A stretch of DNA of 26,075 bases from a virus: the IMG/VR virus record IMGVR_UViG_3300029448_006364, positions 1 to 26,075 of that record. One strand, given 5' to 3'. The notes beneath the pieces are model-generated. The model saw only the letters and a list, made by a program, of their open reading frames with translations, was not told the DNA's origin and did no database searches. Shown piece by piece: positions 3,228 to 24,227 of the stretch. How positions within the stretch are numbered: the stretch's first letter is position 1; every line of letters starts with the position of its first letter. The position numbers and the translations under genes were made by a program.

Positions 3228-3235
3228 TATAAATA
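3228..3235 (-). promoter_or_regulatory. Conserved TATTTATA box upstream of tail sheath
   Basis: Third copy of the box, reading ATATTTATATAAAAAC on the coding strand, 23 bases upstream of the sheath ATG. With the copies before tube and gp26 it marks all three recognised tail-core genes. I did not find the full 8-mer before genes of the upstream modification island. A late promoter element is the simplest reading, but its orientation is opposite to the T4 late consensus. Confidence 0.42.
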
Positions 3236-3624: not shown

Positions 3625-4794
3625 TTATAATCTAGTATTTCCGTAATGAATTACTTTAATATTATTATTAGTCTTAAAACTTCTCCAAGGATCAATAACT
3701 ATTGAACCGTCTGGAAAGTTATAATCATGAAAGTTATTCATATGAGCTAATAAGTAAACTGCTTTAAGTGGTTCTTTAGGATCATAAGTGACTTTAAACT
3801 TACTCCCGAATCTTTCACAGTATTTACCAGTAAGAATAGAAGAAGAACCGTCTTCACTAGTAACATCAGGTTTAAACGATTTTCCTAATATCACTATAGG
3901 TAAATTACTCTTTAAACTTTCTTTTACTAATTTAGTAGATAAGTTTTTAGCTTGTTCCTCTCTTGCTTTAATAACAGCATCAAATATATCATATCCTAAA
4001 TCTAATTTTTCAGCCATATAGCGTAAAGCAATATTATCTCTAGGGTGGCATCCTCCTCCATCCCCCATACCTGGTTTCATATATGCAGGTCCCATAATAC
4101 GTTGAGTAGATCTTGCTAGAGCTCCTGCTACTACATCAGCATTCATATTGCCGTTTTTCTCTGCTACATCTTGAATCATATTTACTAAAGCAACTTTTGT
4201 AGATATAAAAGTATTATAAAATATTTTTATTCCTTCTGCTTCATCCCATGTACCTACCTCATATCTTGTTCCTTTTTTAATAAAGGTATAATAAAAATCT
4301 AATAATAGTTTAGCATCTCCAGTAGTAGCTCCATCTTCAGTCCCTATTATAATCATTTCTGGATTAACCATATCCCATTTTACTGTACCCATAGCTATTA
4401 GATAAGGATTGTAAATAAATCTACCGTTTGGTATTCTACCTATAAACTCTCTCCTTATAGTCCCGGGAAGTACTGTAGATATAAGGACTATCAGCTGATC
4501 TTTGGTTACATGTTTATTTACTTCCTCTAGTACATTATTAACTATAGTATAGTCAAAATCTTTATTGGGTAAGTGTGAGGTAGGGTAGCGGCCATCATAG
4601 TCCGGGTCGTGAGGTGTAGGTACAGCTACAAATATAAGTTCACGATTTTGACATACGTCTTTAATAGTTGTTACCATTTTAAAGTTTTTAGGACTTACTT
4701 CTGTTACGTCGTAACCTATAACTTCATGTTTTTCTGCCATGACTTCAGCAGCGTCTTTTCCTAATTTACCTACTCCTATAAAACCTATTTTCAT
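3625..4794 (-). CDS. UDP-glucose/GDP-mannose dehydrogenase family enzyme
   Basis: The 389-residue enzyme has all three parts of a nucleotide-sugar dehydrogenase, a family that oxidises a sugar C6 alcohol to a uronic acid with two NAD+. The N-terminal Rossmann domain carries GVGKLG (7-12), FVAVPTP (55-61) and STVLPGT (106-112). The linker domain has K190 and N194 in the IKIFYNTF motif. The catalytic Cys is C249 in DGGGCHPRD. The C-terminal nucleotide-binding domain has GKSFKPD (304-310). It is shorter than typical bacterial enzymes (about 430 residues), mainly in its C-terminal half, but no key residue is missing. It is the last gene of the island and overlaps the preceding gene by four bases. 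The substrate (UDP-Glc, UDP-HexNAc or GDP-Man) cannot be told from sequence. Confidence 0.87.
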   Translation of the reverse strand: MKIGFIGVGKLGKDAAEVMAEKHEVIGYDVTEVSPKNFKMVTTIKDVCQNRELIFVAVPTPHDPDYDGRYPTSHLPNKDFDYTIVNNVLEEVNKHVTKDQLIVLISTVLPGTIRREFIGRIPNGRFIYNPYLIAMGTVKWDMVNPEMIIIGTEDGATTGDAKLLLDFYYTFIKKGTRYEVGTWDEAEGIKIFYNTFISTKVALVNMIQDVAEKNGNMNADVVAGALARSTQRIMGPAYMKPGMGDGGGCHPRDNIALRYMAEKLDLGYDIFDAVIKAREEQAKNLSTKLVKESLKSNLPIVILGKSFKPDVTSEDGSSSILTGKYCERFGSKFKVTYDPKEPLKAVYLLAHMNNFHDYNFPDGSIVIDPWRSFKTNNNIKVIHYGNTRL

Positions 4795-5630
4795 ATAGTG
4801 TATATTAATTTTTCAAGTTTGTCTATATCATTAATTTCATTATTATACTTTGGAATAAATTTAGAAGCAAGTTCTTTTGTTTCCATAATATTATTTACAT
4901 CCTCAACTATCTTCTGTAGTACGGAAGAAGGAAAAGGAAGGTTTAATTTTGTACTTATTAATTTAGAGTAGCTAAAATGCTGTAATGGGGTGGGGTGTGT
5001 ATCAATAAACGCTTTTCCATTGGCATTTAAATCCCATATTGGCTTTGTTGTTGGGTTACTGAGGCAGTGTGACTCTATAGAGGGGTAAAGAAAGTAAGGG
5101 GAATTTTCAGTTTCAGACAAAGAAGTATAGTATTTACTTTTTTTCCACTGTAGTATTTGTTTGTCAATATTCTGATGATGAAGGCAGGGTTCACCAAGCA
5201 GGTCTTCTAACCAAGGTTCAAACATATAAAACATACATAGCTTAAATCCTAAATTTTTTGATAATAAAATTAAAGAATCTACATAATGTATAAAATCATT
5301 TGTAGAATCAACTAAACTATAATAGTTGTTTATATAAGATTTATTAAAATAAGGGTTATTGTCAATCTGTCCTGCGCATTTCCAGTGATGATCAATATCC
5401 CTAATATCGTGTCTGATTAGAGAGCTCCATTGAACTATTACTGTATGGTTTTTAGGGTCAATTTCTTTATTATACTTAAAATAGTCTTTAATTTTAATAT
5501 AGCTATACCTCATACCAGAGCCGGATTTTCCTAAAGGAACATACTTATCAAAATAAGGGGTTAACCACAAATCCCATGTTGGGCTGGAATGTTTAGTGTA
5601 ACTACAGCCTGTAGTCAGTAAAGTTGTCAT
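4791..5630 (-). CDS. SGNH/GDSL hydrolase-like protein
   Basis: A 279-residue soluble protein with a GCSYT motif at residues 8-12, which would place the nucleophile at S10. A conserved Gly-rich turn (GKSGSG, 34-39) follows. The C-terminal DTHPTPLQH segment has D210, H212 and H218, like block V of SGNH hydrolases. The GDS of the classic family is GCS here, a variant I associate with phage-encoded SGNH-like proteins. Such enzymes add or remove O-acyl (often acetyl) groups on sugars. There is no signal peptide, so a cytoplasmic sugar or glycoconjugate substrate is likely. Overlaps of four bases on each side indicate translational coupling. Activity is inferred; the fold is reasonably supported. 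Confidence 0.6.
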   Translation of the reverse strand: MTTLLTTGCSYTKHSSPTWDLWLTPYFDKYVPLGKSGSGMRYSYIKIKDYFKYNKEIDPKNHTVIVQWSSLIRHDIRDIDHHWKCAGQIDNNPYFNKSYINNYYSLVDSTNDFIHYVDSLILLSKNLGFKLCMFYMFEPWLEDLLGEPCLHHQNIDKQILQWKKSKYYTSLSETENSPYFLYPSIESHCLSNPTTKPIWDLNANGKAFIDTHPTPLQHFSYSKLISTKLNLPFPSSVLQKIVEDVNNIMETKELASKFIPKYNNEINDIDKLEKLIYTI

Positions 5631-7006
5631 ATTAAGTATTTTTGAGTGTTTAACTTATAATGTGGCTGTACCTTTATTTTTTCACCTGCTACTTGTAGTT
5701 TAAATGTTTTAGCCGGGTAAGATGGTGGTGTATTTTGTAATATAAAGAAGTTTAAGTAGTCTAGTGTTTCCTGCTTTATATCAAATAGAAACCTATTAAA
5801 GTTATGTACTAACGTTTCTTCCATTTCTTGAGTTATCTTATGTAGTTCGTCAACACTTAGCTTACTTAATTCCTTGAGTATTTTTTCTACTTTAGATATA
5901 CGGGTAACTAACTCTATTTCTTCATCGTAACTCTCATCCCACCATTTGTTAAACGTTTTGTAGCCCATTTCTTGCAGTTCTTTTAGAGAGTTAGGGTTTC
6001 CAATTAATATAAATGGCTGTAGCATATATATGGGTTTAAATATTTTCTCAGAAAAAAAAATAGTATCTTCTACGTGTAGTGTTTCTGTAACTATGTTAAG
6101 GAATGTAGATTGATGGAAGTGAGTATTGATATTAAATGCTTGATTACTATTATCTGGGTTGTCAAGAATATGTTCAGGGTTATTAAAATCATACGAGTTA
6201 ATATAGTTACTTACCTGGTCAGTTAGTTTTATGTTTAAAGTACCGTCCCTAATAGTATCCTCTACTATAAGCCCTCTTCTTTCCTGTCGACCTATAGATA
6301 GAATTGTTTTTTCTTCCAGATCAGGATTAGACGCTATAGTCCCAAATATTATTAATCTAGGCAACCTTAATACTCTGTTCAAACAAAGAAAATGTTTTTC
6401 TTTTTTTACTTTTCTGTTACTGTTAATTATACCTTCAGCATGTTCTAATAATTGTTCTTTAGTTGGGGAAACTCCACCTATCGAAGGTGGTATAAACCAA
6501 GGAAAGTTTTCAAAATAAGAATACTTTAAAATTTTAACTCTAGGTTTATTGTCTATTAGTCTAGCTTTTAATAAATTTATATATGTTTGATGTAGTTTTC
6601 TATCACCGTGTGCAAAAAAAAAGTTAGTATCGTCTAACCCATTTAATTTTGCAAATGCCTCCAGCCAAAGTAATAGTCCCTCTTTACCAATGTTCTTATG
6701 AGCTACTCCTTCGGTATCTAACATTATACCTACTTTACATTGGCCGTTATTGCATGCATCTATTATGCTATTATCTAACTTAAAAGGATCTTCCTCATAC
6801 ATTTTTTCGACCAAACCAGATATAGGGTAAATAAATTTTAGGTTTTTTCGAAAAAAATACTCAGTATCTCTTTTTACTACAAGAGTTTCCAGAAATGGAA
6901 CACCGTAGAGTGTAGTGTTAAAGTCACAATCATTTTTATTTAAAGTGTCGTAACCGAAGTATATACTCTTATTGTATTTATTTTCAATAAGCAGGTTAAA
7001 AGACAT
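5627..7006 (-). CDS. Putative GT-B glycosyltransferase (exostosin/GT10-like C-terminal motif)
   Basis: A 459-residue protein whose strongest signal is residues 302-341: FLNIVTETL, then FFSEKIFKPIYMLQPFILIG and NPNSL. This matches the pattern of the sugar-nucleotide site in fucosyltransferase GT10 and exostosin-like GT-B enzymes (acidic residue, then K-x-x-P/A-x-x-x-x-x-P-x-x-x-G). A second conserved-looking element is FLCLNRVLRLPRL at 206-218. The N-terminal 200 residues are not recognised and may form the acceptor domain. There is no membrane segment. The gene overlaps the SGNH gene by four bases and lies six bases after the oxygenase-like gene. Two nine-base T tracts (6052-6060 and 6614-6622) lie inside it. 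Donor and acceptor are unknown. Confidence 0.55.
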   Translation of the reverse strand: MSFNLLIENKYNKSIYFGYDTLNKNDCDFNTTLYGVPFLETLVVKRDTEYFFRKNLKFIYPISGLVEKMYEEDPFKLDNSIIDACNNGQCKVGIMLDTEGVAHKNIGKEGLLLWLEAFAKLNGLDDTNFFFAHGDRKLHQTYINLLKARLIDNKPRVKILKYSYFENFPWFIPPSIGGVSPTKEQLLEHAEGIINSNRKVKKEKHFLCLNRVLRLPRLIIFGTIASNPDLEEKTILSIGRQERRGLIVEDTIRDGTLNIKLTDQVSNYINSYDFNNPEHILDNPDNSNQAFNINTHFHQSTFLNIVTETLHVEDTIFFSEKIFKPIYMLQPFILIGNPNSLKELQEMGYKTFNKWWDESYDEEIELVTRISKVEKILKELSKLSVDELHKITQEMEETLVHNFNRFLFDIKQETLDYLNFFILQNTPPSYPAKTFKLQVAGEKIKVQPHYKLNTQKYLI

Positions 7007-7012
7007 GTAAAA

Positions 7013-7528
7013 TTACTTAGAGTTTATATGTTTATAAATAGTACCTGTAATCTGTAGGGTATATCTTGGTTCTATTCCAATGTTACTAGCTGCATGCTCT
7101 ATATCATAACTGTACATTACATAGTCTCCTTTATTCCAGTTATTAAAACTTGTTTTATTATACTCAAAATAATGACCAGGTTTCCAATCTTCTAAAAAAA
7201 GTATAGCCCTATATACTTCATTTTGTTCTTTATTAAATATTTTACAGTAGGCTTCAAAATGATCGTAATGAGGAGGCATAATATCTAAAGTATCCATTTT
7301 ATAAAAAGTATACCCGCAGTTTTTTAAACCTATAGCGTTACTTATATCTATAGTCCACTCAGGCATAGGATTTTTGCTGCTGTATAAGGCTCCTGTAAAG
7401 CTTTTATGGTAGTATCCTTCTTCTCTCCATCTATTAACTTCACTTTCTTTGATAGGTTGTTTAGTATAGTCGAAGGTAAAGAACTCATTTCCTATTAAAG
7501 TACGTTTTATGTTATCAACTTTTATCAT
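7013..7528 (-). CDS. 2-oxoglutarate/Fe(II)-dependent oxygenase-like protein
   Basis: A 171-residue protein with the metal-binding facial triad of double-stranded beta-helix oxygenases: H87 and D89 in PPHYDHF, and H145 in IEHAASN. R155 in PRYTLQITG is the likely 2-oxoglutarate carboxylate ligand. Spacing and the LEDWKPGHYFEYN strand between them resemble prolyl-4-hydroxylase-type proteins. Such enzymes hydroxylate peptides, sugars or small molecules. It is short but spans the full core. It overlaps the amidinotransferase gene by four bases, which suggests the two act in one pathway. Assignment rests on motif order, not on a database match. Confidence 0.65.
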   Translation of the reverse strand: MIKVDNIKRTLIGNEFFTFDYTKQPIKESEVNRWREEGYYHKSFTGALYSSKNPMPEWTIDISNAIGLKNCGYTFYKMDTLDIMPPHYDHFEAYCKIFNKEQNEVYRAILFLEDWKPGHYFEYNKTSFNNWNKGDYVMYSYDIEHAASNIGIEPRYTLQITGTIYKHINSK

Positions 7529-8535
7529 AATCTTATCATATCAGCAGTACAACAATGGAAAGAACCTCCTAACGTCCTAGAATGTCTTATTTTTAAGTCT
7601 AACGCTTCAATATTATACTTTTTTAACTCTTTGATTAACTCTTTCTGTCTATTATCAACTATTACTGTATTTTCATCTAGAGAAATAAGATTTATACCCA
7701 CCCATTCAGAGGCTCTTAATACTCCTGTATATCCTATATCTACCATAGGAGGGGAATAAATAATATCCCACCCTTTAAATAACTTAGGCATATTTTTTTC
7801 ACTCACTCTAGCAGGGTTAACCAATGCTAGTCCATCTCTTAGAATAGCAATAGTAGAATCGATGTGAGAATACGAATACATATTTTCTAAGTAATGTACT
7901 TTATATTTATCTCCTAACAAATTCTTTAACCAAGTATATCCTTTGTAATTTCCCGTGTTAGAATTAAGGTAAAGAATATCATCATTATGTCTAAGTATAT
8001 TAGCTGCATCAAATACAGGTTCTACTTCAGTTAAAGTTAATTTATCTAGATCATCTCTTTGATATGAATCATCTGTTAGTCTAGGTTTAGGTGCACACAC
8101 CCACTTCGCTCCTTTATCCATATAGTCAATAAACAGCTCTCTATAAGCATCTGTTTCAAACTGTCTAGACCTTAACGTCATAGGTGATTCTATAATGGTA
8201 TCTCCAATGACTGTCATAGTATCTCTTGGGCAGAAGGTATAGTATTGGTCTGTTTCCCAGTAGCCGTTAGAGACGGTTTTTGACGTATCTAAAATATTCG
8301 GTCTATGAACTTTTGCTCCAAAATCTTCTAGTGCTTTTGCTAATAAATCTAAGTCTTCAATAGACTCTTCATATACTTGAGGATCAAATAAACCTCTTTC
8401 TGAGGTAGGTATAGTATCTTTGTCTGCATAATTAATTGCATGTAAGTCAGTACCGTGGAATGGTTGATTAGCATTTTCAACTCTACCTACTATAACCTCT
8501 TTTAAAGTACTATATTCATTATTTACTTTAACCAT
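7525..8535 (-). CDS. Amidinotransferase of the AGAT/StrB type
   Basis: The 336-residue product closely follows L-arginine:glycine amidinotransferase in pattern. EPVFDAANILR (172-182) supplies D176, HIDSTIAI (224-231) supplies H224, and GGSFHCCTAD (323-332) supplies the nucleophile C328; together these are the Cys-His-Asp triad. The intervening VNPARV and ENTVIVD segments also match the family. Members move an amidino group from arginine onto an amine, giving a guanidino product: glycine in AGAT, inosamine-phosphate in streptomycin StrB1. Two genes downstream of a DegT/StrS-type aminotransferase, an amino-sugar acceptor is attractive but unproven. It overlaps its neighbours by 4 and 13 bases. 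No key residue is missing. Confidence 0.87.
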   Translation of the reverse strand: MVKVNNEYSTLKEVIVGRVENANQPFHGTDLHAINYADKDTIPTSERGLFDPQVYEESIEDLDLLAKALEDFGAKVHRPNILDTSKTVSNGYWETDQYYTFCPRDTMTVIGDTIIESPMTLRSRQFETDAYRELFIDYMDKGAKWVCAPKPRLTDDSYQRDDLDKLTLTEVEPVFDAANILRHNDDILYLNSNTGNYKGYTWLKNLLGDKYKVHYLENMYSYSHIDSTIAILRDGLALVNPARVSEKNMPKLFKGWDIIYSPPMVDIGYTGVLRASEWVGINLISLDENTVIVDNRQKELIKELKKYNIEALDLKIRHSRTLGGSFHCCTADMIRL

Positions 8536-9215
8536 TGTTGAAATTTGCTACTGTTATAAATTAAATTAGATATTTTTTCATGGCCTTTTACGTTAGGGTG
8601 ACTCTCATTACCTTCAAAATATTTACCTTCAAAGCAGCTCTGCTCTAGAGCGTCAACATTAAGACTGCTAGGAATTATACCTGAATCTTTTCCTCCTAAA
8701 AACGTAGTTAAACTAGTATCAATTAAAAAGTTAGATTTATCTATCTTGCCGTTAAATTTAAAGCTGTAATCTATACTACCGTAATTAGTAAAGAATAAAA
8801 AACTAACTCCTATTTTAGTTAAATATTCTTGTATACAAAATAAATTTAAAAGTTGAAAATAAGGATGCCAATTTTTATGTTTAACTAATACTTCATTATA
8901 GTAATCAAATTGTTTTTGTATAAATTTATCAGTGTTTTTATTATCAGTATTAAATAGAGATATAAATTTCCCATCTGGAGATTCTCCTATAAACCTTATA
9001 TCAGGAGGAATACATACTAAAATAAAATCACTTTTATCGATTTCCTCAGTTAATATTTCATTAGTAATTTTTGAAAAAGAATTACCATTTAAACCGTAAT
9101 TAATATACTCACTATTTATTTTTTCACTCAGCAAATGAGTATAACATTGTGTTTCAGGCTTATCTAATTCAAAACCATAACACCAACTATCACCAAAAGA
9201 TAAAATTCTACTCAT
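8523..9215 (-). CDS. SGNH/GDSL hydrolase-like protein (second)
   Basis: The 230-residue protein begins with a classic FGDSW block (S10 nucleophile), followed by a GLNGNS block (41-46). Near the end is NESHPNVKGH, where H206 would be the catalytic His. The Asp normally three residues before this His is Asn 203, with Glu 204 next, so the acid may be shifted. It shares family but little obvious sequence with the SGNH-like protein at 4791-5630. A role in acylation or de-acylation of the glycan is plausible. The gene overlaps the amidinotransferase by 13 bases and the aminotransferase by 8. No secretion signal is visible. Confidence 0.7.
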   Translation of the reverse strand: MSRILSFGDSWCYGFELDKPETQCYTHLLSEKINSEYINYGLNGNSFSKITNEILTEEIDKSDFILVCIPPDIRFIGESPDGKFISLFNTDNKNTDKFIQKQFDYYNEVLVKHKNWHPYFQLLNLFCIQEYLTKIGVSFLFFTNYGSIDYSFKFNGKIDKSNFLIDTSLTTFLGGKDSGIIPSSLNVDALEQSCFEGKYFEGNESHPNVKGHEKISNLIYNSSKFQQWLK

Positions 9216-9813
9216 TGAATATTTTTATTTTAGTTAAATCTGGGTAATCTAGATAAGACCATATTTTTGGTTTTTTAATTACTGCTTCTTCTAGTTTAGT
9301 TAAACCTATCTCAGCAGTTTCCGGAGTCATATAATAATGATACCCTATAGTATCTATATCTTGTTCAGTCCATGGTTTATCAAACGTTCTACCATCGTAA
9401 GTCATTTTACGAAGTTTTATAGCTGCTTCTTTATTATCAGTTAATATCATTCCTCCTCTACCTAGACTTAAATGTTTCTTAAATTGAAATGAAAGAACCA
9501 TAAAAGTATTGTTAATATACGAATTTTTTTCCCATAATACAGCTGCATCAATTATATTAGAAGTAATATAGTAAAAACTTTCCCATGCGAAAGATCTCCA
9601 TTGAAGGTCTATATTTAACTTTTTAGAGAGCAAAGGAACTGAAATATAAGTATTAATAGGTGAACTGATTAAAGGAGCTTTACTGTACCTTAAACATAGT
9701 TCTAACCCATGAGTACAGCAATCTACAGCTACTCCATACGGTGCATTAAACCATTCTGCTACTTTCTTTTCAAAGTATGTTATCTTTTGAAATGAATTGT
9801 AATTTGTATTCAT
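9208..9813 (-). CDS. Miniature DegT/DnrJ/EryC1/StrS-family aminotransferase
   Basis: At 201 residues this is about half the usual 360-400 of sugar aminotransferases, yet it keeps the core PLP site. FEKKVAEWFNAPYGVAV (14-30) matches the family N-terminus. IIDAAVLW (87-94) supplies D89 for the pyridine nitrogen. SFQFKKHLSLGRGG (108-121) places the Schiff-base Lys at K113, and YHYYMTPETAEIGLTKLEE (158-176) matches the helix after the active site. The C-terminal small domain is essentially absent. The family transaminates keto-sugar nucleotides to amino-sugars. The reading frame is intact, so this looks like a natural reduction or a domain-degraded enzyme. It overlaps the upstream gene by an unusually long 44 bases. 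Confidence 0.75.
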   Translation of the reverse strand: MNTNYNSFQKITYFEKKVAEWFNAPYGVAVDCCTHGLELCLRYSKAPLISSPINTYISVPLLSKKLNIDLQWRSFAWESFYYITSNIIDAAVLWEKNSYINNTFMVLSFQFKKHLSLGRGGMILTDNKEAAIKLRKMTYDGRTFDKPWTEQDIDTIGYHYYMTPETAEIGLTKLEEAVIKKPKIWSYLDYPDLTKIKIFNE

Positions 9814-10771
9814 TTTTATTATGGTTTGCGTAATTTAAATTATTATACTCTTCTTCAATCCTCCCTAAAGTCATTTCTGATTTCATAAAGTTAACAGTTT
9901 TACCAGATATTCTACTAGCCATATAACTCCAAGTAGAAGGTGGGCTACGAACTATTTCTTTTGTACAGCTTAAACTAAAAAAATCTATTAAGTCGTACCC
10001 CATATTTTTTAATTGAAGTCTAGGTTTTAAAAAGTTTATTTCGTCAATTAAATTTTTATTGATATTTACTACATCACTACAAGTTAAAATTTTATCTGGG
10101 TATCTTACCTTATAGTAATCTATAGCCTTTTCATTAACATCTATACCTAAATAAAATTTAGCTGAAGGGTCTTTATTAATGTATTCATCTATAACTTTAA
10201 AATAAATTTCATCTCTAATAAATGGATATACTTTATCACAATCTAAACATATTTTATAGTACTGCATATACCCTCTAGGTATAGAAAACCTATCTTGATT
10301 GTCTAAATATACTCCGCTGCCTCTTCTTATATGTATCCCAATGCGATCTTGTACTGTAGATTTTATTTTTTCGTAAAGAATATTACTTTTTAATTTTACT
10401 GAGGTAATAATATCAGCATTTTTATTTAAAAAATCTTCACATAGATCTACAGTATTACCGTAATTAAAATTATTAGTATAAGATAATTCTTTATCTAATA
10501 TTATTTCTCTATTTTTAATCCATTTTTGTACTACTGAATCTTTAATTGGTATGGCTTTTATTTTGTCTAAAGTAGTATATTCGGTATTCGGAAAATTTAC
10601 TAAAGAAAGTTCGGGAAACTCTTCAGGTAGTACCTTTATAGTATGTTGATTGCCCATAATATCATTCATTATACAAGCTGTTTGCCATGCAATTAACCGA
10701 TTACCCCATCCGCTATCGTGGTTTTTAACATCATTCCAAGGGTCTCTTAAAAATATAGTTTTTTCAGACAT
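9770..10771 (-). CDS. Fucosyltransferase-like glycosyltransferase (GT-B, HxRRG motif)
   Basis: The 333-residue protein has the landmarks of the alpha-1,2/1,6- and O-fucosyltransferase superfamily. GWGNRLIAW at 21-29 corresponds to the N-terminal G-x-G-N-R element. IGIHIRRGS (144-152) is the GDP-sugar phosphate-binding HxRR motif. KFYLGIDVN (205-213) and SPPSTWSYMASRISG (276-290) match the C-terminal donor-binding motifs. These enzymes transfer fucose or a related deoxy-sugar from GDP. No GDP-fucose synthesis gene is present here, so the donor would come from the host or elsewhere in the genome. It overlaps the radical SAM gene upstream by eight bases. Donor identity is inference. Confidence 0.75.
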   Translation of the reverse strand: MSEKTIFLRDPWNDVKNHDSGWGNRLIAWQTACIMNDIMGNQHTIKVLPEEFPELSLVNFPNTEYTTLDKIKAIPIKDSVVQKWIKNREIILDKELSYTNNFNYGNTVDLCEDFLNKNADIITSVKLKSNILYEKIKSTVQDRIGIHIRRGSGVYLDNQDRFSIPRGYMQYYKICLDCDKVYPFIRDEIYFKVIDEYINKDPSAKFYLGIDVNEKAIDYYKVRYPDKILTCSDVVNINKNLIDEINFLKPRLQLKNMGYDLIDFFSLSCTKEIVRSPPSTWSYMASRISGKTVNFMKSEMTLGRIEEEYNNLNYANHNKNEYKLQFISKDNIL

Positions 10772-16178: not shown

Positions 16179-16762
16179 TATATCTTATGTACAAAATTTA
16201 AATTACCTGTTATGTCTACATACTTATCGAATATTCTTTCCTCAAAAAAATGATCACTTAAAATCTTTCCATCCTGAGATAAAGTAAACCTAAGAAGATC
16301 AAAGTCAGTATAATTTAAGTTAAAATTATTTTTTGGAAAGTTACCTGCTCCAATTATTATATGTGGGGATTCATTAATACCAAATACTTTATTTTCCATA
16401 GATTCGTTTACTACAACTTCGTTATTAATAAATATTTTAAAATAAAGTTTAGGTTTATGATCAAACTTTACTACTGTATGCTTATCAACAGGTATAGGAA
16501 AAGGTAATCTATAATACCTTGGTTTATCTTCATAAGTTATTGTAATAACAGTTTCTTCTGGGTATAAATCTAAACCTGTATACCTAGGAACTAAAGTAAA
16601 TATAGTTTTTTGGAGTTTAGAATTATCTCTTAATATAAAATCAAAAGAAAACTCAAACGAATGTTCTCCGGTTAATAAAAGATTAGAAGGATTAGAAGGA
16701 AAAGTATCACAAATACTGCTAGGCCAAAATAACCAAGGTTCTCCTTTATTTATTTTCAGCAT
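16178..16762 (-). CDS. Stand-alone jelly-roll (LamG/concanavalin-like) protein
   Basis: A 194-residue protein with strongly alternating beta-strand composition: HSFEFSFDFILRD, TVVKFDHKPKLYFKIFINNE and LLRFTLSQDGKILSDHFFEER. This pattern, with a short Asn-Gly-type hairpin in the middle and a closing strand, is that of a LamG/concanavalin A-like sandwich. No catalytic residues or secretion signal are visible. Similar domains are inserted in the two GT7 enzymes nearby, so it may be a separate carbohydrate- or acceptor-recognition subunit. It lies between the two CHHP-type radical SAM genes and overlaps copy 5 by 17 bases. Fold assignment is by pattern only. Confidence 0.5.
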   Translation of the reverse strand: MLKINKGEPWLFWPSSICDTFPSNPSNLLLTGEHSFEFSFDFILRDNSKLQKTIFTLVPRYTGLDLYPEETVITITYEDKPRYYRLPFPIPVDKHTVVKFDHKPKLYFKIFINNEVVVNESMENKVFGINESPHIIIGAGNFPKNNFNLNYTDFDLLRFTLSQDGKILSDHFFEERIFDKYVDITGNLNFVHKI

Positions 16763-18119
16763 ACATATTAGTTAACTGAGGAAACGTATCAGAAAAACTA
16801 GTACCTCTTCTCTTATCATACTCCTCAACAAATTTAAAAAACTCTTTCCTACTTTTTTCTTGATCATAAATTACGCTATTACCTATTGCATAATCATATG
16901 TTCGTTTAATTTTCTGTATTTCTACGTTTGAAAATCCATAGTTACTATGAGTAAATTCTTTTATTCCATAGTATAAAGCTTTCTCAGCAGATTTTAGTAT
17001 TAGCTCTTTATGTTCCTTATCTAATACTCTTACAGACATAAAAGAAGGCCATCTTAAATAAGAGGTATCCAACTGTATAGCTGATACCCAGTATCTTTTA
17101 CCATTAGCATATTTCTTTTTTAGGTTAAAAACTCTATCAATAACCTTATCGTAAGTAAAAACCGATAGGGCATTAAAAGTAGCCATAACATTTATAGTTA
17201 CTTTCGGTAACTTAGTAAGTATTTTATTAACATTGGCCCAAAATTTATCAGCTTGTAATCCATATCTTACATATTCAGCTTGTTTATCATCTCCTTCTAT
17301 CGAGGTAAATACTATTAATTCTCTTACCTTATTATTATTGCATAAATCTGTAGCTATCTCTATAAATCTATCTATAAGTTTATCTGGTACTCCTAAATTT
17401 GTATTGATTGCTAAAGATATATTACTATTCTCTTTATAATTTTCTTGTATATATTCTAATACTTTAAAAGTATCTTTAGATAATAAAGGTTCGCCGCCAG
17501 TAATTCTAAATGTATGGAGATCTTTAAACATATCTGGCCACCATTTCCAAAAAGCTTCTATATAAGGATTGTGTTCTGAATGTTTATAAGGAAATTCATT
17601 TTTTTTCTTTAAAAACTCTATGTCGTTATAGTTATTAACCTCTTTATATCCTCCATGATTCTCTATTTCTTCTACCCATTTAGAAGAATACTGAGGTCCA
17701 CAGTAAGCACAAGCAAAATTACAAGTATTTGAAAAAGATACTTCTACATATTTAGGATTAAAGTTATCTTCCCAGTCTGAATTAACTATATTATCGAATT
17801 GCGATATTGACCAAGGTTCAGATGACTTAAAAACTCTATCTGAATAAGAAGTAGAATTATCTTCTACATTCCAGCAGTAATTACATTCAGATGGTTTTCT
17901 ATTATTGATCATCTGTCTGCGTTTCATTTTCTTATGCTTAGTATTATGTAAAGCAGTAGGATTACTCTTTAATTCTTCTAATGGTATTTTATGAGGAGAA
18001 GGATGGTGACAGGAATGAGTCATACCGGTACCAAGATGCATAGTAACTTGGGTCCATTTAGCTAAGCAGAACCCTTTACCAACAGAATCTAATTTATTCT
18101 TTACTTCTTGATTGGTCAT
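16746..18119 (-). CDS. Radical SAM protein with CHHP-type N-terminal module, copy 5
   Basis: A 457-residue protein, close in layout to copy 4. It has FCLAKW (C18), SCHHPSPHKIPLEELK (C37 onward), CNYC (C79, C82), the core CNFACAYC (C133, C137, C140) and GGEP at 208-211. The shared ALHNTKHKK stretch and the PYIEAFWKWW segment indicate a duplication with copy 4. It lacks copy 4's long C-terminal tail. This is the first of the radical SAM run to be transcribed, directly after the GT7 genes with a four-base overlap. This gene order suggests that glycosyl transfer and radical modification act on the same product, but the substrate is unknown. Confidence 0.87.
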   Translation of the reverse strand: MTNQEVKNKLDSVGKGFCLAKWTQVTMHLGTGMTHSCHHPSPHKIPLEELKSNPTALHNTKHKKMKRRQMINNRKPSECNYCWNVEDNSTSYSDRVFKSSEPWSISQFDNIVNSDWEDNFNPKYVEVSFSNTCNFACAYCGPQYSSKWVEEIENHGGYKEVNNYNDIEFLKKKNEFPYKHSEHNPYIEAFWKWWPDMFKDLHTFRITGGEPLLSKDTFKVLEYIQENYKENSNISLAINTNLGVPDKLIDRFIEIATDLCNNNKVRELIVFTSIEGDDKQAEYVRYGLQADKFWANVNKILTKLPKVTINVMATFNALSVFTYDKVIDRVFNLKKKYANGKRYWVSAIQLDTSYLRWPSFMSVRVLDKEHKELILKSAEKALYYGIKEFTHSNYGFSNVEIQKIKRTYDYAIGNSVIYDQEKSRKEFFKFVEEYDKRRGTSFSDTFPQLTNMYAENK

Positions 18120-19477
18120 AACTTTACATTAAGCATTTTTGCCCAAGGAGTTAGCTTTTCTTCACTAACTAAATCATACTTTAAGGTACTTATACCTTCA
18201 TTTTTATAGTTTGACTTACCTTGTTGCATTTCTAATACATATCTGCGTTCATTTTTAGCTGTTGTAGGACCTTTAGCCCATTTACCGTTAACTAATCCTT
18301 CATCTTTATGAGGTAAACATCTAAATTTACCATCTCTACGATGAGGAATGATAGCATTATATACTACCATATCTTCTTTAACATTAGTAATATTTTCTCT
18401 AAGGTCATTTTTACTTTCTGTAAGCTTCCATATAGTTTCTCCTTGACTTTTTATTATAACTTCTCCTATACCTCCTTTAAATCTTTTTCCTGGATAGTTT
18501 TCCTCAAAAGAAGGTGTATATCCTAAGTAAATGTCACCATTTTTATATTTACTACTAAGCCTACCGTTATATATTAATGGAGATTCAGTACCATGACCTA
18601 ATTCAGCATCAGCTTCTACTCCATTTAAAAAATAATTAACTTTCCTTTCACGTGGATTAAACTTAGCTGTAATCCAAGTCCATAAGTTATCATATCTTTT
18701 TATCCACATGTAGTTATGTTGATGAAAAGTATTAAAAAATTGAAGAGTAAATGCTCTTGAATTATTGAAAGATAAGCCAAAATCTTCTCCAGGTATCCTA
18801 AAAATAGGATATTCGTAAAATTTAGCTTCATTATCACCTATTAAATGTATAGGAGCTTTATGCTGTTGATGCTCTGCTTTAGCTAAAATAGATATTTCAA
18901 ATTCTCTTTGAAAAAACCCTTTAGGTAAAGTTTCTTTAGGTACTATTATCTTAGAATCTTCACCATTAAAGTATAAATGACTAGAAAATGTATCCATACT
19001 AGTAGTAGTAACATCGAGCATACCTTCTAAATAACATCTCCAAAATAAATCATCATCTTCCATACCCCAATCCCAATAGTTATTAGAGTATCCATTGGTT
19101 TTTTCCACTTGTTCTTTTGAAAATATAACTGCTCCTCCAAAATATTCAAAGTATTTAAGTTTATAATCTGATTGAGATATTCTTACTGCTATATGTTGAG
19201 GATTATCTTTAGGAAAAGAGTAATCACAACTACTATCTTCCGGAATCATATCAATATCATGCCATACAATATAATCACAACCATCTTCGAATGCATGTTT
19301 AGCAGCTATATTTTTCATTGCTCCTCTATTAAACAGTTTATCATCTATTTGATGAGCAAAGTACATTTTAAATTCTATATTAGAGTCTTTTAAGAACTTA
19401 CCTACCTTAGGAATAAATTCATTAAGGTGTAATTCCCTATTTCTATACGGTACACAAACTCCTAACTTATGATTCAT
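18116..19477 (-). CDS. GT7 beta-1,4-galactosyltransferase-like enzyme with inserted LamG-type domain (copy A)
   Basis: The N-terminal 155 residues follow animal-type beta-1,4-galactosyltransferase: VPYRNRE (9-15), FNRGAMKN (49-56), the DID metal motif (74-76), EYFGG (111-115) and WGMEDDD (137-143). Residues from about 162 to 370 are a beta-rich jelly-roll insertion (SSHLYFNGEDSKIIVP to FKGGIGEVIIKS). The GT fold then resumes with IIPHRRDGKF, where H379 aligns with the third metal ligand of the family, and ends with the GISTLKYDL strand. Such enzymes transfer Gal or GalNAc from a UDP-sugar. There is no signal anchor, unlike eukaryotic members. The 453-residue protein overlaps both neighbours by four bases. 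Donor is inference. Confidence 0.83.
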   Translation of the reverse strand: MNHKLGVCVPYRNRELHLNEFIPKVGKFLKDSNIEFKMYFAHQIDDKLFNRGAMKNIAAKHAFEDGCDYIVWHDIDMIPEDSSCDYSFPKDNPQHIAVRISQSDYKLKYFEYFGGAVIFSKEQVEKTNGYSNNYWDWGMEDDDLFWRCYLEGMLDVTTTSMDTFSSHLYFNGEDSKIIVPKETLPKGFFQREFEISILAKAEHQQHKAPIHLIGDNEAKFYEYPIFRIPGEDFGLSFNNSRAFTLQFFNTFHQHNYMWIKRYDNLWTWITAKFNPRERKVNYFLNGVEADAELGHGTESPLIYNGRLSSKYKNGDIYLGYTPSFEENYPGKRFKGGIGEVIIKSQGETIWKLTESKNDLRENITNVKEDMVVYNAIIPHRRDGKFRCLPHKDEGLVNGKWAKGPTTAKNERRYVLEMQQGKSNYKNEGISTLKYDLVSEEKLTPWAKMLNVKL

Positions 19478-20877
19478 AACATTACCTCTAAATGATGATA
19501 GTTTTTACTATCAAATCTATTTCTTTCCTTATATTTACAAGAACTTAATCCATCTCTTTGGTAGTTAGATTTAAAAGTATAATAATTATTTAAATATCTT
19601 AATTGATTTTCTCTACTAGTCCAACTAATCCAGTAACCATCTTTATATCCATTTTCTTTATGAGGTAAAACTTTAAACTCACCTTTTTTTCGGTGTGGAA
19701 TAGGTTTAAATATATCAGTACTAGTCTGAGTTAATGTTTGATTACAGTTAAATACTCTTCCGTTGCTTCCTCCTTTAAGATCTAATAGCTCAGTACCGTT
19801 TACAAATTTCATATCGTAATAAGATACTAAGTAATCTTTAGAACTGAGAGAAAATAAACTATTAGAAAAGTTATTCCCTAATTCAGCACACTCTTCATCA
19901 GATAATGCTTCAGAATAAGTAGCAAAAGTATCTATAGTACCTTTAAACCAATTATTTTTTTCTTTTCTTTCAGGATCTCCTACTCCTAAGTAAATATATT
20001 TTTGTTTCCTTATATTTAACATCTTATCAAAAGGACTCTGTCCTACTTTTTTACCGTTTAAGTAGAATCTAACTAAAGGAGGTAAATAATTACCAGCTTT
20101 GCTAACTGTAATTATAGCATTATACCTTCCTGCTTGTAATCCTTTAGTAGGAAGAGAAATAGAACTTAAATCTTGTTTCCAAAATTGAAAAGTAAGGTCA
20201 AAAAAGGAATTTACTGTTAAGGTAGTATCAAAACCAGGTATACTAAATATAGAATTCTCATCAGTTACTTGATCTACATCAGATATTATATCATTATACC
20301 CAAAAGAAGTATAAATTGTAAAGTCTCTTATAACTGATAGTTTATTTGGTATTGCAACAAAGCTATCTTTACCATTAAACTCTAATGATACTCCTTCTCT
20401 TCCTTTTTGTACTACTTTTTTACCGTTTAAATCAATATGATTCTCTAAACAACGTAATAATAAATCATCATCTTCAAATCCCCACCCAAAATACTCGTTA
20501 GAATAACCATTTACCTGTTTAAATAGATTTACAGGAAAAGCGGTCACTCCTCCGAAGTATTCATCAAATAAAGTCCTAGAAACTCCTTCAGGTAAATCAA
20601 CTTTAGTAATTAAATGTGTGGGTTTATCAACATAAGAATAGTCAGCTTTGATAGGTAACATATCAATATCATGAAATATAACATAATCACATCCTAACTT
20701 ATCTGCTTCTAAAAAACCTATGTTTAAAAGTTTACCTCTATTAAATTCTTTTTTATCTGATTGTTCGACTATAATTAATTCAAAGTCTATTTTAAGGTAA
20801 TCGTTTATTTCTTTTCTAAATACGGCAAGCTGTTCTGATCTATTTCTATAAGGTACTATTATCCCTAATTTATGCAT
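19474..20877 (-). CDS. GT7 beta-1,4-galactosyltransferase-like enzyme with inserted LamG-type domain (copy B)
   Basis: A paralogue of the next gene. VPYRNRS (8-14), FNRGKLLNIGF (45-55), DID (70-72), EYFGG (106-110) and WGFEDDD (132-138) define the GT7 catalytic half. The insertion from about 160 to 390 is a clearer LamG-type domain than in copy A: VSLEFNGKDSFVAIP opens it, and FKGTIDTFATYSEALSDEE is a typical late LamG segment. The metal-site His returns as H395 in PIPHRKKGEF, and DGLSSCKYK matches the family C-terminus. Both copies also share an LPHK(D/E) motif near residue 390-405. The 467-residue product is soluble. The gene overlaps the small upstream gene by eight bases. Confidence 0.84.
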   Translation of the reverse strand: MHKLGIIVPYRNRSEQLAVFRKEINDYLKIDFELIIVEQSDKKEFNRGKLLNIGFLEADKLGCDYVIFHDIDMLPIKADYSYVDKPTHLITKVDLPEGVSRTLFDEYFGGVTAFPVNLFKQVNGYSNEYFGWGFEDDDLLLRCLENHIDLNGKKVVQKGREGVSLEFNGKDSFVAIPNKLSVIRDFTIYTSFGYNDIISDVDQVTDENSIFSIPGFDTTLTVNSFFDLTFQFWKQDLSSISLPTKGLQAGRYNAIITVSKAGNYLPPLVRFYLNGKKVGQSPFDKMLNIRKQKYIYLGVGDPERKEKNNWFKGTIDTFATYSEALSDEECAELGNNFSNSLFSLSSKDYLVSYYDMKFVNGTELLDLKGGSNGRVFNCNQTLTQTSTDIFKPIPHRKKGEFKVLPHKENGYKDGYWISWTSRENQLRYLNNYYTFKSNYQRDGLSSCKYKERNRFDSKNYHHLEVML

Positions 20878-21082
20878 CTTTTTTTGGTAGTTCTTCTATA
20901 TCTTTCGATATTTCAGGAGAACGACTTAAAAATTCAGCTAAATAATACTGAATTCTTTCATTCCACTCTTCTTTATCGATTTCTTCAAACCATAATACAA
21001 AACTATCTAAACTTCTACTAATTTTCTCTAATGCTTTAACTTTTCTTTCTTCTAAAAGCTGCTTTTCTACATCTAGACTCAT
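20870..21082 (-). CDS. Small helical protein of unknown function
   Basis: A 70-residue acidic, helix-rich protein (LEERKVKALEKISRSLDSF, then a WFEEIDKEEW segment) with no recognised motif, signal peptide or membrane span. It overlaps the GT7 gene by eight bases and the GT-A gene by four, so it is translated within the operon and is probably real. It could be a small partner of one of the flanking glycosyltransferases, but nothing in the sequence proves it. Confidence 0.65.
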   Translation of the reverse strand: MSLDVEKQLLEERKVKALEKISRSLDSFVLWFEEIDKEEWNERIQYYLAEFLSRSPEISKDIEELPKKDA

Positions 21083-21915
21083 ATTTTTACTATTTTATCT
21101 CTTAATTTATTCCAATTGGTATATTCGTTATAATTAATATACGAAAATTCCTTTAATTCTTCAACTAAATACTCTGGATTATTAATATCTATCTTCCATC
21201 CTGAGTCTTTAATAGCATTATACATTTTAAGGTACTCTTCTGAGTAAGCATATTGTTTATTTACATCGGCTACCTTTTTAATTCTATCTATACAAGTACT
21301 ATCCCATTTAAAATGATGTACTTGAGTAAATACTTCCTCTATAGGCATTCTTTTAGGGTGTTTAGCACCCCAGCTAGTATTATCAGCAAATTGTACGTAA
21401 TGTTGACCAGAAGTAACTCGCATAGATCCTTTCATTAGAGTAGCTTTGTTAGGGCACGCTCCAGACATAGGATATCTAAAGAATCCACCCAATGGAAATG
21501 CTTTATGTAAGTCCGTCTCTCTAGTGACCTTAGGAAAAGTACCATCTTTACCTATTCTATCTAAGAAACCGCCTGTAACAAACTCATAACCTCTTCTTTC
21601 ACACTGTTCCACTATGTCTTCTATATCATACGGATAAACTTGTAGTTCATCATCGTCAGATACTATCCACCAATCAGTTGGTTTAGTTCCTTTTATAGAA
21701 TTGTATATATCTGTTACTCTATTCCAATTATATTTAGAATCAGTAAATACCATAAATGGGTCTATACCTAATTCTTCTATTTCTTCAAGTATATTATCAT
21801 TTTCAGATTGTCTATAAACACCTACATAGATTTTATCTACCTTATTTTCATAATGTTTTAACATATGGGGTAGAATATGAGTATTCTCACCTACTACTGT
21901 AACTAAATTAAGCAT
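21079..21915 (-). CDS. GT-A glycosyltransferase (GT2/GT92-like)
   Basis: A 278-residue enzyme with a GT-A nucleotide-binding half: LVTVVGENTHILPHMLKHY at the start, a Rossmann-like YVGVYR strand, and WWIVSDDDELQ with the DxD motif at 87-89. The second half has HHFKWD (200-205), a motif common in the LPS and GT92-like branches where the His helps coordinate the metal. It likely transfers a sugar from a nucleotide donor. Length fits a single-domain enzyme. The gene overlaps the methyltransferase gene by eight bases. Acceptor and donor are unknown. Confidence 0.75.
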   Translation of the reverse strand: MLNLVTVVGENTHILPHMLKHYENKVDKIYVGVYRQSENDNILEEIEELGIDPFMVFTDSKYNWNRVTDIYNSIKGTKPTDWWIVSDDDELQVYPYDIEDIVEQCERRGYEFVTGGFLDRIGKDGTFPKVTRETDLHKAFPLGGFFRYPMSGACPNKATLMKGSMRVTSGQHYVQFADNTSWGAKHPKRMPIEEVFTQVHHFKWDSTCIDRIKKVADVNKQYAYSEEYLKMYNAIKDSGWKIDINNPEYLVEELKEFSYINYNEYTNWNKLRDKIVKI

Positions 21916-22645
21916 GTTGTACTATAGTTAAACCTGTAGAACTAGGTTTAGTTGTTAATATACCGTTATTAAATAGATTAAATGAGTTCCACTTAGCATT
22001 TTTCTTTAATTCTTTCATAAACTTAGCTGGACCATTATTAAATTCATGAAAATGGTCTTGATCAGCTATATCTTTAGTTATTATATAGTCTTTAGAGTAG
22101 GATTCATCAGTATCATGAATAGAAATAATACCTTTTTTGCTTACTATATTACTATAAAGTTCAAAATCTTGTTTTATATCTTTATATGAATGTCCAGCAT
22201 CAATATGTAAATAATCTATCTTTATATCCTCTTTAACAAAGAAGTTATAATAAGCTTTTTCAGTTGTTTCGTTTATAATACGAGGACAAAACGTTTTTCT
22301 AAAGAAAGAATCTTTATCTAACCAGTCTACTTGACCTCCTACTTCGTTAGCAGCATCTACAATGAATGTTACCCCTATATCACCCCAACTCATACCATTA
22401 TCTCCTTCAAATATACCTGCTTCATGAAGGTCTTGCCTGGCTTTAGTCATTATTCTAGGTATAAATCCACCTCCAGACCCTAAACATACACATACTTTAG
22501 CTCTCATATATTGAATAATAGAATATATTAATAGTCCATCACCTAAATCATTATCAGTTGCACCATGAGTCCATCTATAAGTGACTGGTTTATCCTTATT
22601 ATTAGTTATATTAGCTTTTATATAATGTTTATTAAGTATACTCAT
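21908..22645 (-). CDS. Class I SAM-dependent methyltransferase (Methyltransf_24-like)
   Basis: A 245-residue protein with the SAM-binding turn LGSGGG (55-60) after a VCVC strand, the acidic post-II region, and the family signature DYLHIDAGHSYKDIKQD (144-160), followed by KKGIISIHDTD (170-180). This pattern fits the Methyltransf_24 and macrocin-O-methyltransferase-like group, which commonly O-methylates sugars and antibiotics. A sugar O-methylation in the island's glycan is plausible. It touches the gene upstream by one base and overlaps the GT-A gene by eight. No membrane or export signal. Confidence 0.8.
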   Translation of the reverse strand: MSILNKHYIKANITNNKDKPVTYRWTHGATDNDLGDGLLIYSIIQYMRAKVCVCLGSGGGFIPRIMTKARQDLHEAGIFEGDNGMSWGDIGVTFIVDAANEVGGQVDWLDKDSFFRKTFCPRIINETTEKAYYNFFVKEDIKIDYLHIDAGHSYKDIKQDFELYSNIVSKKGIISIHDTDESYSKDYIITKDIADQDHFHEFNNGPAKFMKELKKNAKWNSFNLFNNGILTTKPSSTGLTIVQHA

Positions 22646-23511
22646 TATCTTTTTGATAATTTGTTGAGAGATTGCATATTAACGTTACTATTATTAGAAA
22701 TAATACTCTTTAAAGTGTTTATTTCATTAATATAGTTAAATCCTTCCGAAGAATCTAATATTTTATTCTTTTCCATCCAATAATGTCTGAAATATAGTTG
22801 AGCTTGTTTATATTCTAGTATACCTTTTTTACCTTTTAACCATTTCCTTTCATTACAGTGCCATACATTAGTAATTAACGGTATATAGTCTATCTTATGC
22901 AAATCTAATACATGTTTAAGTAATAATTGTTCAGCATAAACTAAGTATTTTGAGTTAGGAGCTCTTAAATCAGTAAGTTCTTTCATTAATTGTAACGAAG
23001 TTCTTGCATAGGATCTGGCAAAAGCAGGATTAGGGTAGTAATTGAAGCAACAATTAACTGAATTATTATTAGGACGGTGTAAAATATGTCTAGTTCTTCT
23101 TACATATTCATCCATTACGTTAGGATAGTAGTTTTCTCCGTTTTCATCATGTCCTACTATAACTTTATCCTTAAGAAAAGGTTCAAAGCACTTATAAACT
23201 AAAAAATCGTGATCTAATACTACTGAGGGTTGATTTATATTAGATAATATATCTAGTTTAGAGCTAGCCCAGAAAATATCTTTATTAATACTTTCATCGA
23301 ATGAACATCTGTATACATTATCCCAAAGTTCTATAGCATTAATATCAGATAAGAAAGAATGAGTCATCTTATCACAATATAAGTTAGTATTAGTATTAGG
23401 ATTATGCTTTTTCCACTGTATTGCAGATCCTAATAGTAAAGATACTTTGAGTTCAGTATAAAAGCTAGAGTGTTTTTTGATATTCTCTAATATCCATATA
23501 ACATTTACCAT
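22645..23511 (-). CDS. Putative GT-A-like glycosyltransferase
   Basis: A 288-residue protein. Residues 80-104 contain FWASSKLDIL, then VVLDHDFLV, where D100-H-D102 would be a DxD-type metal site. The W-A-x-x-K-x-x-x-L pattern before it recalls sugar-region enzymes that bind nucleotide sugars. After this come a Cys-Asn-rich NCCFNYYPNPAF segment (about 153-164) and a YAEQLLL helix. I do not recognise the exact family; the call rests on these motifs and the setting. It is the first gene of the island after the fibre-region proteins and is separated from them by 17 bases. Confidence 0.45.
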   Translation of the reverse strand: MVNVIWILENIKKHSSFYTELKVSLLLGSAIQWKKHNPNTNTNLYCDKMTHSFLSDINAIELWDNVYRCSFDESINKDIFWASSKLDILSNINQPSVVLDHDFLVYKCFEPFLKDKVIVGHDENGENYYPNVMDEYVRRTRHILHRPNNNSVNCCFNYYPNPAFARSYARTSLQLMKELTDLRAPNSKYLVYAEQLLLKHVLDLHKIDYIPLITNVWHCNERKWLKGKKGILEYKQAQLYFRHYWMEKNKILDSSEGFNYINEINTLKSIISNNSNVNMQSLNKLSKR

Positions 23512-23528: not shown

Positions 23529-24227
23529 TTAACAAAGAGTACCACTTGTTATAACTCCATTTGCGTCTACTGTTAATACTGTAGTACCGTCAGAATATTT
23601 ACCTGCTGATACTGTAGTTGTTAATGTCGCATCAGTATAGAATGCATAAGCATCATCAAAGTTAGATCCATCATCATCGTTCCAGAATACCGTAGTACCA
23701 GATGCACCACAAGCAGTAGCTGCATCAGAAGCATGGTAACCTATACTAGCATTATTACTTCCAGGGGAGGTAGACCAGCAATAAAAATTAGTAACTGATG
23801 TATGATCAGTAGCAGTTAAATCTAAAGTAGCATTAGTAGATATAGTAGTAGAGCCATCAGTATCAGAAGTCCATTTTTGAAATACATAAGGATAAGTAGG
23901 AGATGCTACTAATCTAACTGTTGCATTATCATTATAAGAATTATTTTTTATAGCTAAAGTAGTTGAAGCATTTACTGTACCACTAGTATAAGGTAAAGTA
24001 ACTTGAGCTGTAATGTTAGTTTTAGTAACTACGTTACCATAAAATAGTTTATTACTTCTTAATTCACTATTTACACCAAGATTGGTAGCACCAGGATCAT
24101 CAACGATGTCTCTTGCCCAACCATTTGAACCTGATACAGTAATGTTATCGTTTCCGTCTACATTATTAGCCCAAGTGTCAGTTGATGAAAATGATATATT
24201 TGTGGTTCCGTATTCTGCTACTGCCAT
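23529..24227 (-). CDS. Beta-rich virion/adhesin-type protein, probable tail fibre tip
   Basis: A 232-residue Thr/Ser/Asn-rich protein. Residues 103-150 (VRLVASPTYPYVFQKWTSD, then a TTISTNATLDLT run) resemble a bacterial InlB B-repeat/bacterial Ig-like strand pattern. The C-terminal part (164-232) has the pattern ACGASGTTVFW, AYAFYTDATLTTTV, KYSDGTTVLTVD and a final GTLC. I associate this with secreted or fibre-tip proteins of Bacteroidota and their phages. No signal peptide is present, as expected for a virion protein. It lies two genes after the S74 fibre in the same operon. Exact role in the virion is inference. Confidence 0.6.
   Translation of the reverse strand: MAVAEYGTTNISFSSTDTWANNVDGNDNITVSGSNGWARDIVDDPGATNLGVNSELRSNKLFYGNVVTKTNITAQVTLPYTSGTVNASTTLAIKNNSYNDNATVRLVASPTYPYVFQKWTSDTDGSTTISTNATLDLTATDHTSVTNFYCWSTSPGSNNASIGYHASDAATACGASGTTVFWNDDDGSNFDDAYAFYTDATLTTTVSAGKYSDGTTVLTVDANGVITSGTLC

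Follow-up and report, generated by a model that had tools for sequence, protein, structure and literature searches.

Here we describe a gene island in IMGVR_UViG_3300029448_006364, a 26-kb record of an uncultured virus, whose 26,075 nucleotides were analysed as a whole and are referred to below as the window. On a balance that tips only slightly to this side, the island (positions 3625-23511) would be a late, fibre-linked glycosylation locus, in which a constant core is joined to an exchangeable cassette and whose target would be a virion protein, with STR232 or STR170 as the most likely ones, two products encoded between the tail fibre and the island. A bolder version, to which we lend somewhat less than even credence, is that of a phage glycoserotype locus, in which priming glycosyltransferases would co-evolve with a structural acceptor while the exchange of a radical SAM and aminosugar cassette would switch the glycan of the tail in an O-antigen-like manner.

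Every major open reading frame (ORF) of the window lies on the minus strand, the reading direction going from 26073 to 56. In that order there appear a tail fibre with an S74 chaperone, STR170, STR232, the island, the small protein sm84 (84 aa), the gp18 tail sheath, the gp19 tube and a gp26-like baseplate protein. The island extends from the fibre side to the gp18 side as 20 tightly packed same-strand ORFs, nearly all of them encoding enzymes. An earlier note, made from this DNA alone, had delimited the same block with 19 genes; the count becomes 20 because a conserved 70-aa ORF (sm70, 20870-21082) belongs to it. The overlaps of 1-44 nt that it gave for the junctions are found at most of them, two being instead gaps of 17 and 6 nt. 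Its view that the island continues directly from the fibre gene agrees with the small size of these junctions, since the first sizeable gaps come only after the dehydrogenase gene UGD (50 nt between UGD and sm84, 115 nt between sm84 and gp18). Furthermore, the hydropathy scan, a check that it had proposed, detected no membrane span or signal peptide in any island product, in line with its picture of soluble enzymes.

Relatives of the glycosyltransferase GT7b were found in 43 IMG/VR loci, nearly all of which maintain the order fibre-STR170-STR232-GT288-MT245-GT278-sm70-GT7a-GT7b-rSAM1 (about 40 contigs of uncultured relatives), with the S74 fibre upstream of STR170 in nearly all cases. The recurrence of the same order in dozens of independent contigs confirms that this gene set goes beyond chance. 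After rSAM1 there are often LamG194 and rSAM2; a stretch of variable content comes next, frequently with UGD after it, and sm84 and gp18 close the series. Leaving aside one relocated lineage (G001-G003), gp18 stands downstream of rSAM1 on the same strand, 6.6-26 kb away, in all 19 records that hold both genes; the comparison of neighbourhoods suggested in the earlier note thus finds the block beside structural genes in the relatives, with that lineage as the exception. The island consists, in consequence, of two modules, a fixed core and, towards the sheath, an exchangeable cassette, which constitutes a variable block within the structural gene module with the fibre upstream and gp18 directly downstream, as in a hypervariable region. 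Phages whose sheaths are 89-91% identical can differ strongly in their cassettes. Alternative cassettes, likewise devoted to sugar chemistry, include an NTP transferase-mannose isomerase fusion, a class I aminotransferase, PhyH, a GT47-like protein and UGD paralogues, and the variable genes of the relocated lineage encode a tryptophan halogenase, an epimerase, a 2OG oxygenase and a sulfotransferase-like protein. In the same lineage (L143:8123-16852 and L146:7740-16460) a divergent block of halogenase, sulfotransferase-like, 2OG-oxygenase and SGNH genes separates STR170-STR232-GT288 from the remaining core.

The second layer of evidence comes from the co-variation of the core enzymes with the structural partners, assessed on 21 dereplicated records with gp18 by pairwise identities, partial correlation on gp18 and the Mantel test. 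GT7b follows STR170 (rho 0.85; partial on gp18 0.80, Mantel p 0.001) as well as GT288 (rho 0.81; partial 0.75, Mantel p 0.001), and GT288 in turn follows STR170 (rho 0.82). Both enzymes also co-vary with STR232, beyond what phage phylogeny accounts for. No such tracking of STR170 is seen for MT245 (rho 0.32), GT278 (0.18) or GT7a (0.18), the last of which follows rSAM1 (rho 0.37); the bootstrap interval of the difference between GT7b and GT7a against STR170 is 0.40-0.89. Plain linkage was rejected as the cause, because MT245, GT278 and GT7a are encoded nearer to STR170 than GT7b and do not track it. Altogether, these correlations suggest a functional tie that joins GT7b and GT288 to STR170 and STR232.

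A natural cassette swap is provided by the comparison of L104/L049 with L105/L048, where L104 and L049 overlap over 7,422 bp at 100% and were treated as one population. From the fibre to sm70 the pair presents 96.0% DNA identity; most of GT7a does not align, GT7b is 93.8% identical, the stretch from rSAM1 to just before UGD differs except for short patches, and UGD through gp26 is 99.2% identical. Since the genes on both flanks of GT7b were replaced, the exchange took its neighbours yet spared GT7b. The junction on the right is marked by 57 bp shared without mismatch at the UGD 5′ end (L049:7352-7408, L048:8431-8487), and a second copy of this stretch, 88% identical, lies roughly 1 kb beyond it next to a paralogue of U459.

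Regarding expression, of 208 distinct regions upstream of gp18, gp19 or gp26 in the relatives, 176 have the motif TATTTATA about 27 nt ahead of the gene; of 472 such regions of island genes only 14 have it, 11 of these being ahead of UGD. We infer that the island is transcribed from upstream, together with the fibre. TATTTATA equals the reverse complement of TATAAATA, the late-promoter sequence of T4; the regions of the window concerned are 794-905 (before gp26), 1392-1425 (before gp19) and 3205-3319 (before gp18). Scans for sigma70-type promoters and counts of TATAAATA gave chance levels, only the comparative motif test being informative.

The modular build is the best-evidenced part of this picture, and a possible sequence of events can be sketched from these elements. 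The first step would be a short glycan, initiated by GT288 and GT7b, perhaps helped by GT278 and MT245, on a structural protein encoded upstream, namely STR232 and/or STR170; of the two, the Ser/Thr-rich STR232 is the likelier acceptor. Outer sugars of variable type, some of them bearing amino or guanidino groups, would next be produced and added by GT7a and the cassette; radical SAM enzymes, the shortened DegT aminotransferase, the amidinotransferase, the 2OG oxygenase, SGNH esterases or acyltransferases, further glycosyltransferases and the nucleotide-sugar dehydrogenase may contribute to this. Homologous recombination in the flanking constant genes would exchange the cassette and change the glycan type of the tail, as occurs with bacterial O-antigens, which might alter adsorption specificity or shield the virion from binding proteins and decoys. 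The decoration of virion proteins, perhaps of the fibre, had already been proposed in the earlier note: the glycan-type chemistry, the soluble enzymes and the linkage to structural genes speak for it, whereas the fibre does not appear as the best acceptor candidate, STR170 and STR232 being preferred because GT288 and GT7b co-vary with them.

Several observations weigh against this interpretation. We infer both the glycan and its acceptor from the genes alone, and STR170 and STR232 are assumed to be virion proteins from their position and composition. The co-variation could come from joint transfer or from a partnership other than that of enzyme and substrate, and the partial rho between GT7b and STR170, still present, falls to 0.58 when the clade of the window itself is left out. 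In G001-G003 the core is split, MT245 to rSAM2 lying about 17 kb off on the other strand, and in G001, where gp18 was found, the split block is far from it; in this lineage a collagen-repeat fibre is encoded about 3 kb from the relocated block. STR170-STR232-GT288 stay joined despite the split, a point in favour of the present reading. Another relative, G024, has STR170 and the core with no STR232, for which reason STR232 was dropped as a strict requirement. Moreover, when GT7b was searched for in 84,980 genomes of bacteria and archaea, only three matches came up, two weak relatives and one contig of a Pelagibacterales metagenome-assembled genome (MAG). The latter (L149, VHCC01000006.1, 23 kb) carries MT245-rSAM1 and no STR genes in its available part; it is probably a binned viral contig, because NF033640 exceeds its cut-off in only 1 of 297 Pelagibacterales genomes. 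The promoter of the fibre is also less certain, since exact matching places TATTTATA ahead of just 5 of 20 fibre genes, and looser matching ahead of 17 of 24. Finally, the cultured phages S-SCSM2R, Bellamy and HTVC008M carry similar chemistry away from tail genes.

This last point equally favours the main rival explanation, the remodelling of the host surface, in which the enzymes, working on the cytoplasmic side, would alter or extend the lipopolysaccharide (LPS) or capsule of the host. Competing phages would then find their receptors masked, or virions would be kept from sticking to debris when the cell lyses. This is the published reading for pelagimyophage islands with glycosyltransferases and radical SAM cassettes (PMC7029224), for cyanophage LPS genes and for jumbo-phage polysaccharide clusters; in addition, weakly related radical SAM enzymes of cellular organisms have sugar genes as neighbours, and a membrane PAP2 phosphatase gene is found near the module of the Campylobacter phage CP220. 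On the other hand, no island protein spans the membrane, and PF02397, the sugar-phosphate transferase of lipid-carrier initiation, is present in 0 of 14 long relatives, records that may be fragments; flippase and polymerase families were covered through the hydropathy scan only. The same scan leaves no candidate for the membrane proteins GtrA/GtrB or the membrane-bound glycosyltransferase of gtr serotype conversion. The island furthermore stands behind a structural gene and is devoid of the motif typical of sheath and tube genes, and GT7b and GT288 co-vary with structural proteins. We thus regard host-surface remodelling as a serious possibility, though on the whole a doubtful one.

Peptides are frequent substrates of SPASM/twitch radical SAM proteins, and the conserved sm70 within the core brings to mind the maturation of a ribosomally synthesized and post-translationally modified peptide, or else C-H modification of a virion protein, glycosylation being then secondary. 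However, the sm70 sequences in the aligned rows inspected are charged and helix-like and have no cysteine, unlike a typical precursor, and the DegT, amidinotransferase, UGD and glycosyltransferase neighbours indicate sugars, so this option seems improbable. Still less probable would be the synthesis during infection of a soluble, aminoglycoside-like guanidino-sugar: the StrB1-type amidinotransferase together with DegT, glycosyltransferases and radical SAM enzymes does resemble aminoglycoside pathways as generally known, but no resistance or export gene was seen, no membrane protein exists in the island, and the linkage and co-variation with STR170/STR232 would be left unexplained. As for DNA, glycosyltransferases of T-even phages and of metaviromes are known to modify it, and the same could be imagined for this T4-like phage; nevertheless, PF00303 (thymidylate-synthase/dCMP-hydroxymethylase type) exceeds its cut-off in 0 of 14 long relatives, which may be fragmentary records, and the island belongs to a structural operon. 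DNA hypermodification is the least credible of these roles and quite unlikely.

Islands with glycosyltransferases and radical SAM genes, exchangeable radical SAM/amidinotransferase modules and virion glycosylation are already known in phages. The host recognition cluster of pelagimyophages, between VrlC and gp14 and interpreted as modifying the host O-chain (PMC7029224), is likewise hypervariable and placed within the structural region of T4-like marine phages; it combines fibres and glycosyltransferases with UDP-glucose dehydrogenase and with radical SAM cassettes, which vary between close relatives. Here, in contrast, the island is located between fibre and gp18 in another lineage, its GT7/radical SAM core is fixed, and there are structural partners that co-vary. 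The hyperplastic region g15-g18 of cyanomyoviruses (4-14 genes, including carbon and photosynthesis metabolism; PMC2984593) is an insertion hot spot directly ahead of gp18 as well; what precedes gp18 in our case is a glycan cassette of conserved order, gp13-gp15 and VrlC falling outside the window. In the Campylobacter phages CP220 and CPt10, an interchangeable module near the baseplate lysozyme genes, interpreted as metabolic (PMC2853527), comprises five radical SAM genes, an amidinotransferase and glycosyltransferase-like genes exchanged en bloc between related phages, but its proteins are distant (30% for the amidinotransferase), it does not have the GT7 core, and it is away from fibre and sheath. 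The Synechococcus phage S-SCSM2R brings together a mini-DegT and radical SAM with a 2OG oxygenase, an amidinotransferase (42% identity) and glycosyltransferases, in its case in the psbD/tRNA region, at a distance from tail genes and without the GT7 core. In mycobacteriophages Che8 and Rita it has been shown experimentally that phage glycosyltransferases glycosylate capsid and tail proteins (Freeman 2023, as related in PMC11256854 and PMC12619734); according to those accounts, these unrelated phages have a few such genes near the 3′ end of the genome, compared with the 20-gene locus described here. In turn, the viral GT7 enzymes resemble the beta-1,4-galactosyltransferases B4GalT1 and B4GalT7 in their catalytic region, which is N-terminal and contains DxD-type and EDDD motifs, and differ from them in having no membrane anchor and in their central laminin-G insert, Pfam-supported in GT7a and similar in GT7b.

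No earlier description of this GT7-laminin-G/radical SAM core was found in the open-access literature, and GT7b, GT278 and STR170 gave nothing by tblastn in 50,697 phage records. Marine viromes repeatedly yield glycosyltransferase and radical SAM genes (e.g., PMC7150976, PMC7029224), whose roles have so far been guessed, mostly as acting on host LPS or DNA. A conserved unit, a named candidate acceptor and a natural swap make the choice between virion and host-surface glycosylation directly testable. If the former were true, T4-like marine phages would join the mycobacteriophages as carriers of virion glycosylation and bring with them a so far unexplored group of radical SAM enzymes active on sugars.

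Table 1. Features of the window in reading order, all on the minus strand (for the motif, the coding strand).
Feature	Assignment	Positions	Supporting evidence
Tail fibre	Tail fibre with C-terminal Peptidase_S74 chaperone	24742..26073	PF13884 E 9.9e-18, phage fibre PHROGs
STR170	Small conserved protein, candidate acceptor or scaffold	24229..24741	First gene of conserved order
STR232	Ser/Thr-rich beta protein, candidate glycan acceptor	23529..24227	Flg_new_2/InlB-like, below cut-off
GT288	Candidate GT-A glycosyltransferase, core	22645..23511	DxD-like DHD; conserved order, co-variation
MT245	SAM methyltransferase, core	21908..22645	PF13578 (Methyltransf_24) E 8.1e-09
GT278	GT2-like glycosyltransferase, core	21079..21915	PF13704 E 3e-4, below cut-off
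sm70	70-aa charged protein, core	20870..21082	Motif WFEExDK...W..R.Q.YL
GT7a	GT7 galactosyltransferase-type enzyme with inserted LamG_3	19474..20877	PF13733, PF02709, PF13385; b4GalT1/7
GT7b	GT7 galactosyltransferase-type enzyme, similar central insert	18116..19477	PF02709, PF13733
rSAM1	N-terminal-twitch radical SAM, last core gene	16746..18119	NF033640 332 bits, CNFACAYC
LamG194	Stand-alone laminin-G-like (lectin-fold) protein	16178..16762	hhalign vs GT7a LamG insert, E 6.5e-7
rSAM2	Radical SAM	14553..16178	NF033640 319 bits
rSAM3	Radical SAM, cassette	13207..14556	NF033640 312 bits
rSAM4	Radical SAM, cassette	11993..13231	NF033640 338 bits, SPASM
rSAM5	Radical SAM, cassette	10764..11996	NF033640 287 bits, SPASM
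FT333	Candidate fucosyltransferase-like enzyme	9770..10771	HIRRG motif alone
mini-DegT	Sugar aminotransferase	9208..9813	PF01041 E 2.7e-15, PLP-lysine motif
SGNH230	SGNH/GDSL-like esterase or acyltransferase candidate	8523..9215	PF14606 sub-threshold, GDS motif
AMT336	Amidinotransferase (StrB1/AGAT type)	7525..8535	FDAAN, HIDST, GGSFHC motifs
OXY171	2OG-Fe(II) oxygenase-like, paired with AMT336	7013..7528	Matches annotated S-SCSM2R 2OG oxygenase
U459	GT-B-fold glycosyltransferase candidate	5627..7006	AF2 model pLDDT 77
SGNH279	SGNH-like candidate	4791..5630	GCSY and DTHP motifs
UGD	UDP-glucose/nucleotide-sugar dehydrogenase, right-hand border of cassette	3625..4794	PF00984, PF03721
sm84	Small conserved protein ahead of sheath, outside cassette	3320..3574	
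TATTTATA	Candidate late-promoter motif ahead of gp18	3228..3235	
gp18	Tail sheath	1426..3204	phrog_23 E 1.3e-71

The individual assignments (Table 1) largely agree with the enzyme list of the earlier note. Its several glycosyltransferases include two firm members of GT7, as GT7a and GT7b carry GT7N and GT7C domains over the Pfam cut-offs with DxD and EDDD motifs, and the GT7b family profile matches b4GalT7 (3lw6, E 1.8e-37); GT278 is a sub-threshold GT2 match, U459 is called by fold, and GT288 and FT333, neither with a family match in profile searches, stay as candidates. For U459, with no sequence family and no convincing match in the PDB profile search, the GT-B call is taken from the fold match alone, the best PDB matches of its model being GT-B enzymes (E 2e-4). 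The five radical SAM proteins exceed by far the cut-off of 170 bits for NCBIfam NF033640 (N_Twi), with 287-338 bits, and each has CxxxCxxC and GGEP. The methyltransferase is upheld by the Methyltransf_24 domain of MT245, the dehydrogenase by the two Pfam domains of UGD (which also matches phrog_9148, E 8e-97, and holds the swap junction), and the aminotransferase by a shortened DegT of 201 aa (about 199 aa in relatives). Full-length homology to StrB1 (1bwd, E 1e-90 over 335 residues), together with the Asp/His/Cys motifs, places AMT336 among predicted StrB/AGAT-type amidinotransferases. The two SGNH-like proteins and the oxygenase have motif-level or sub-threshold support; the S-SCSM2R 2OG oxygenase matched by OXY171 adjoins the amidinotransferase of that phage. 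The shortened DegT with its PLP-lysine motif is kept in 20 loci and exists also in S-SCSM2R.

Among the flanking genes, that of the fibre is open at the window edge, its 5′ end being beyond it. STR170 has no family match in domain and PHROG profile searches. The gp18 sheath comes closest to the Flavobacterium phage immuto group (65%). The STR232 family reaches 29.5% Ser plus Thr, the highest of all families compared (10-22% in the others); its predicted structure was not used as fold evidence, the model being poor (pLDDT 62) and the matches limited to weak bacterial-repeat/InlB-like ones. LamG194 is 194 aa long. The small protein sm70 (ERKvkALEKIa...WFEEiDKd.W..RiQ.YL) is conserved in 43 loci and, among the loci compared, appears only alongside the GT7 core. 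L149 also encodes sugar genes, including epimerases, beside its GT7/radical SAM core, and the bacterial MAG contigs L150 and L151 encode GT7b-like proteins of similar length (34-35%). Scans of the window for Rfam families and tRNAs were empty, and between gp19 and gp26 a terminator-like hairpin of 13 pairs with a T-rich tail was observed on the coding strand (window 857-887).

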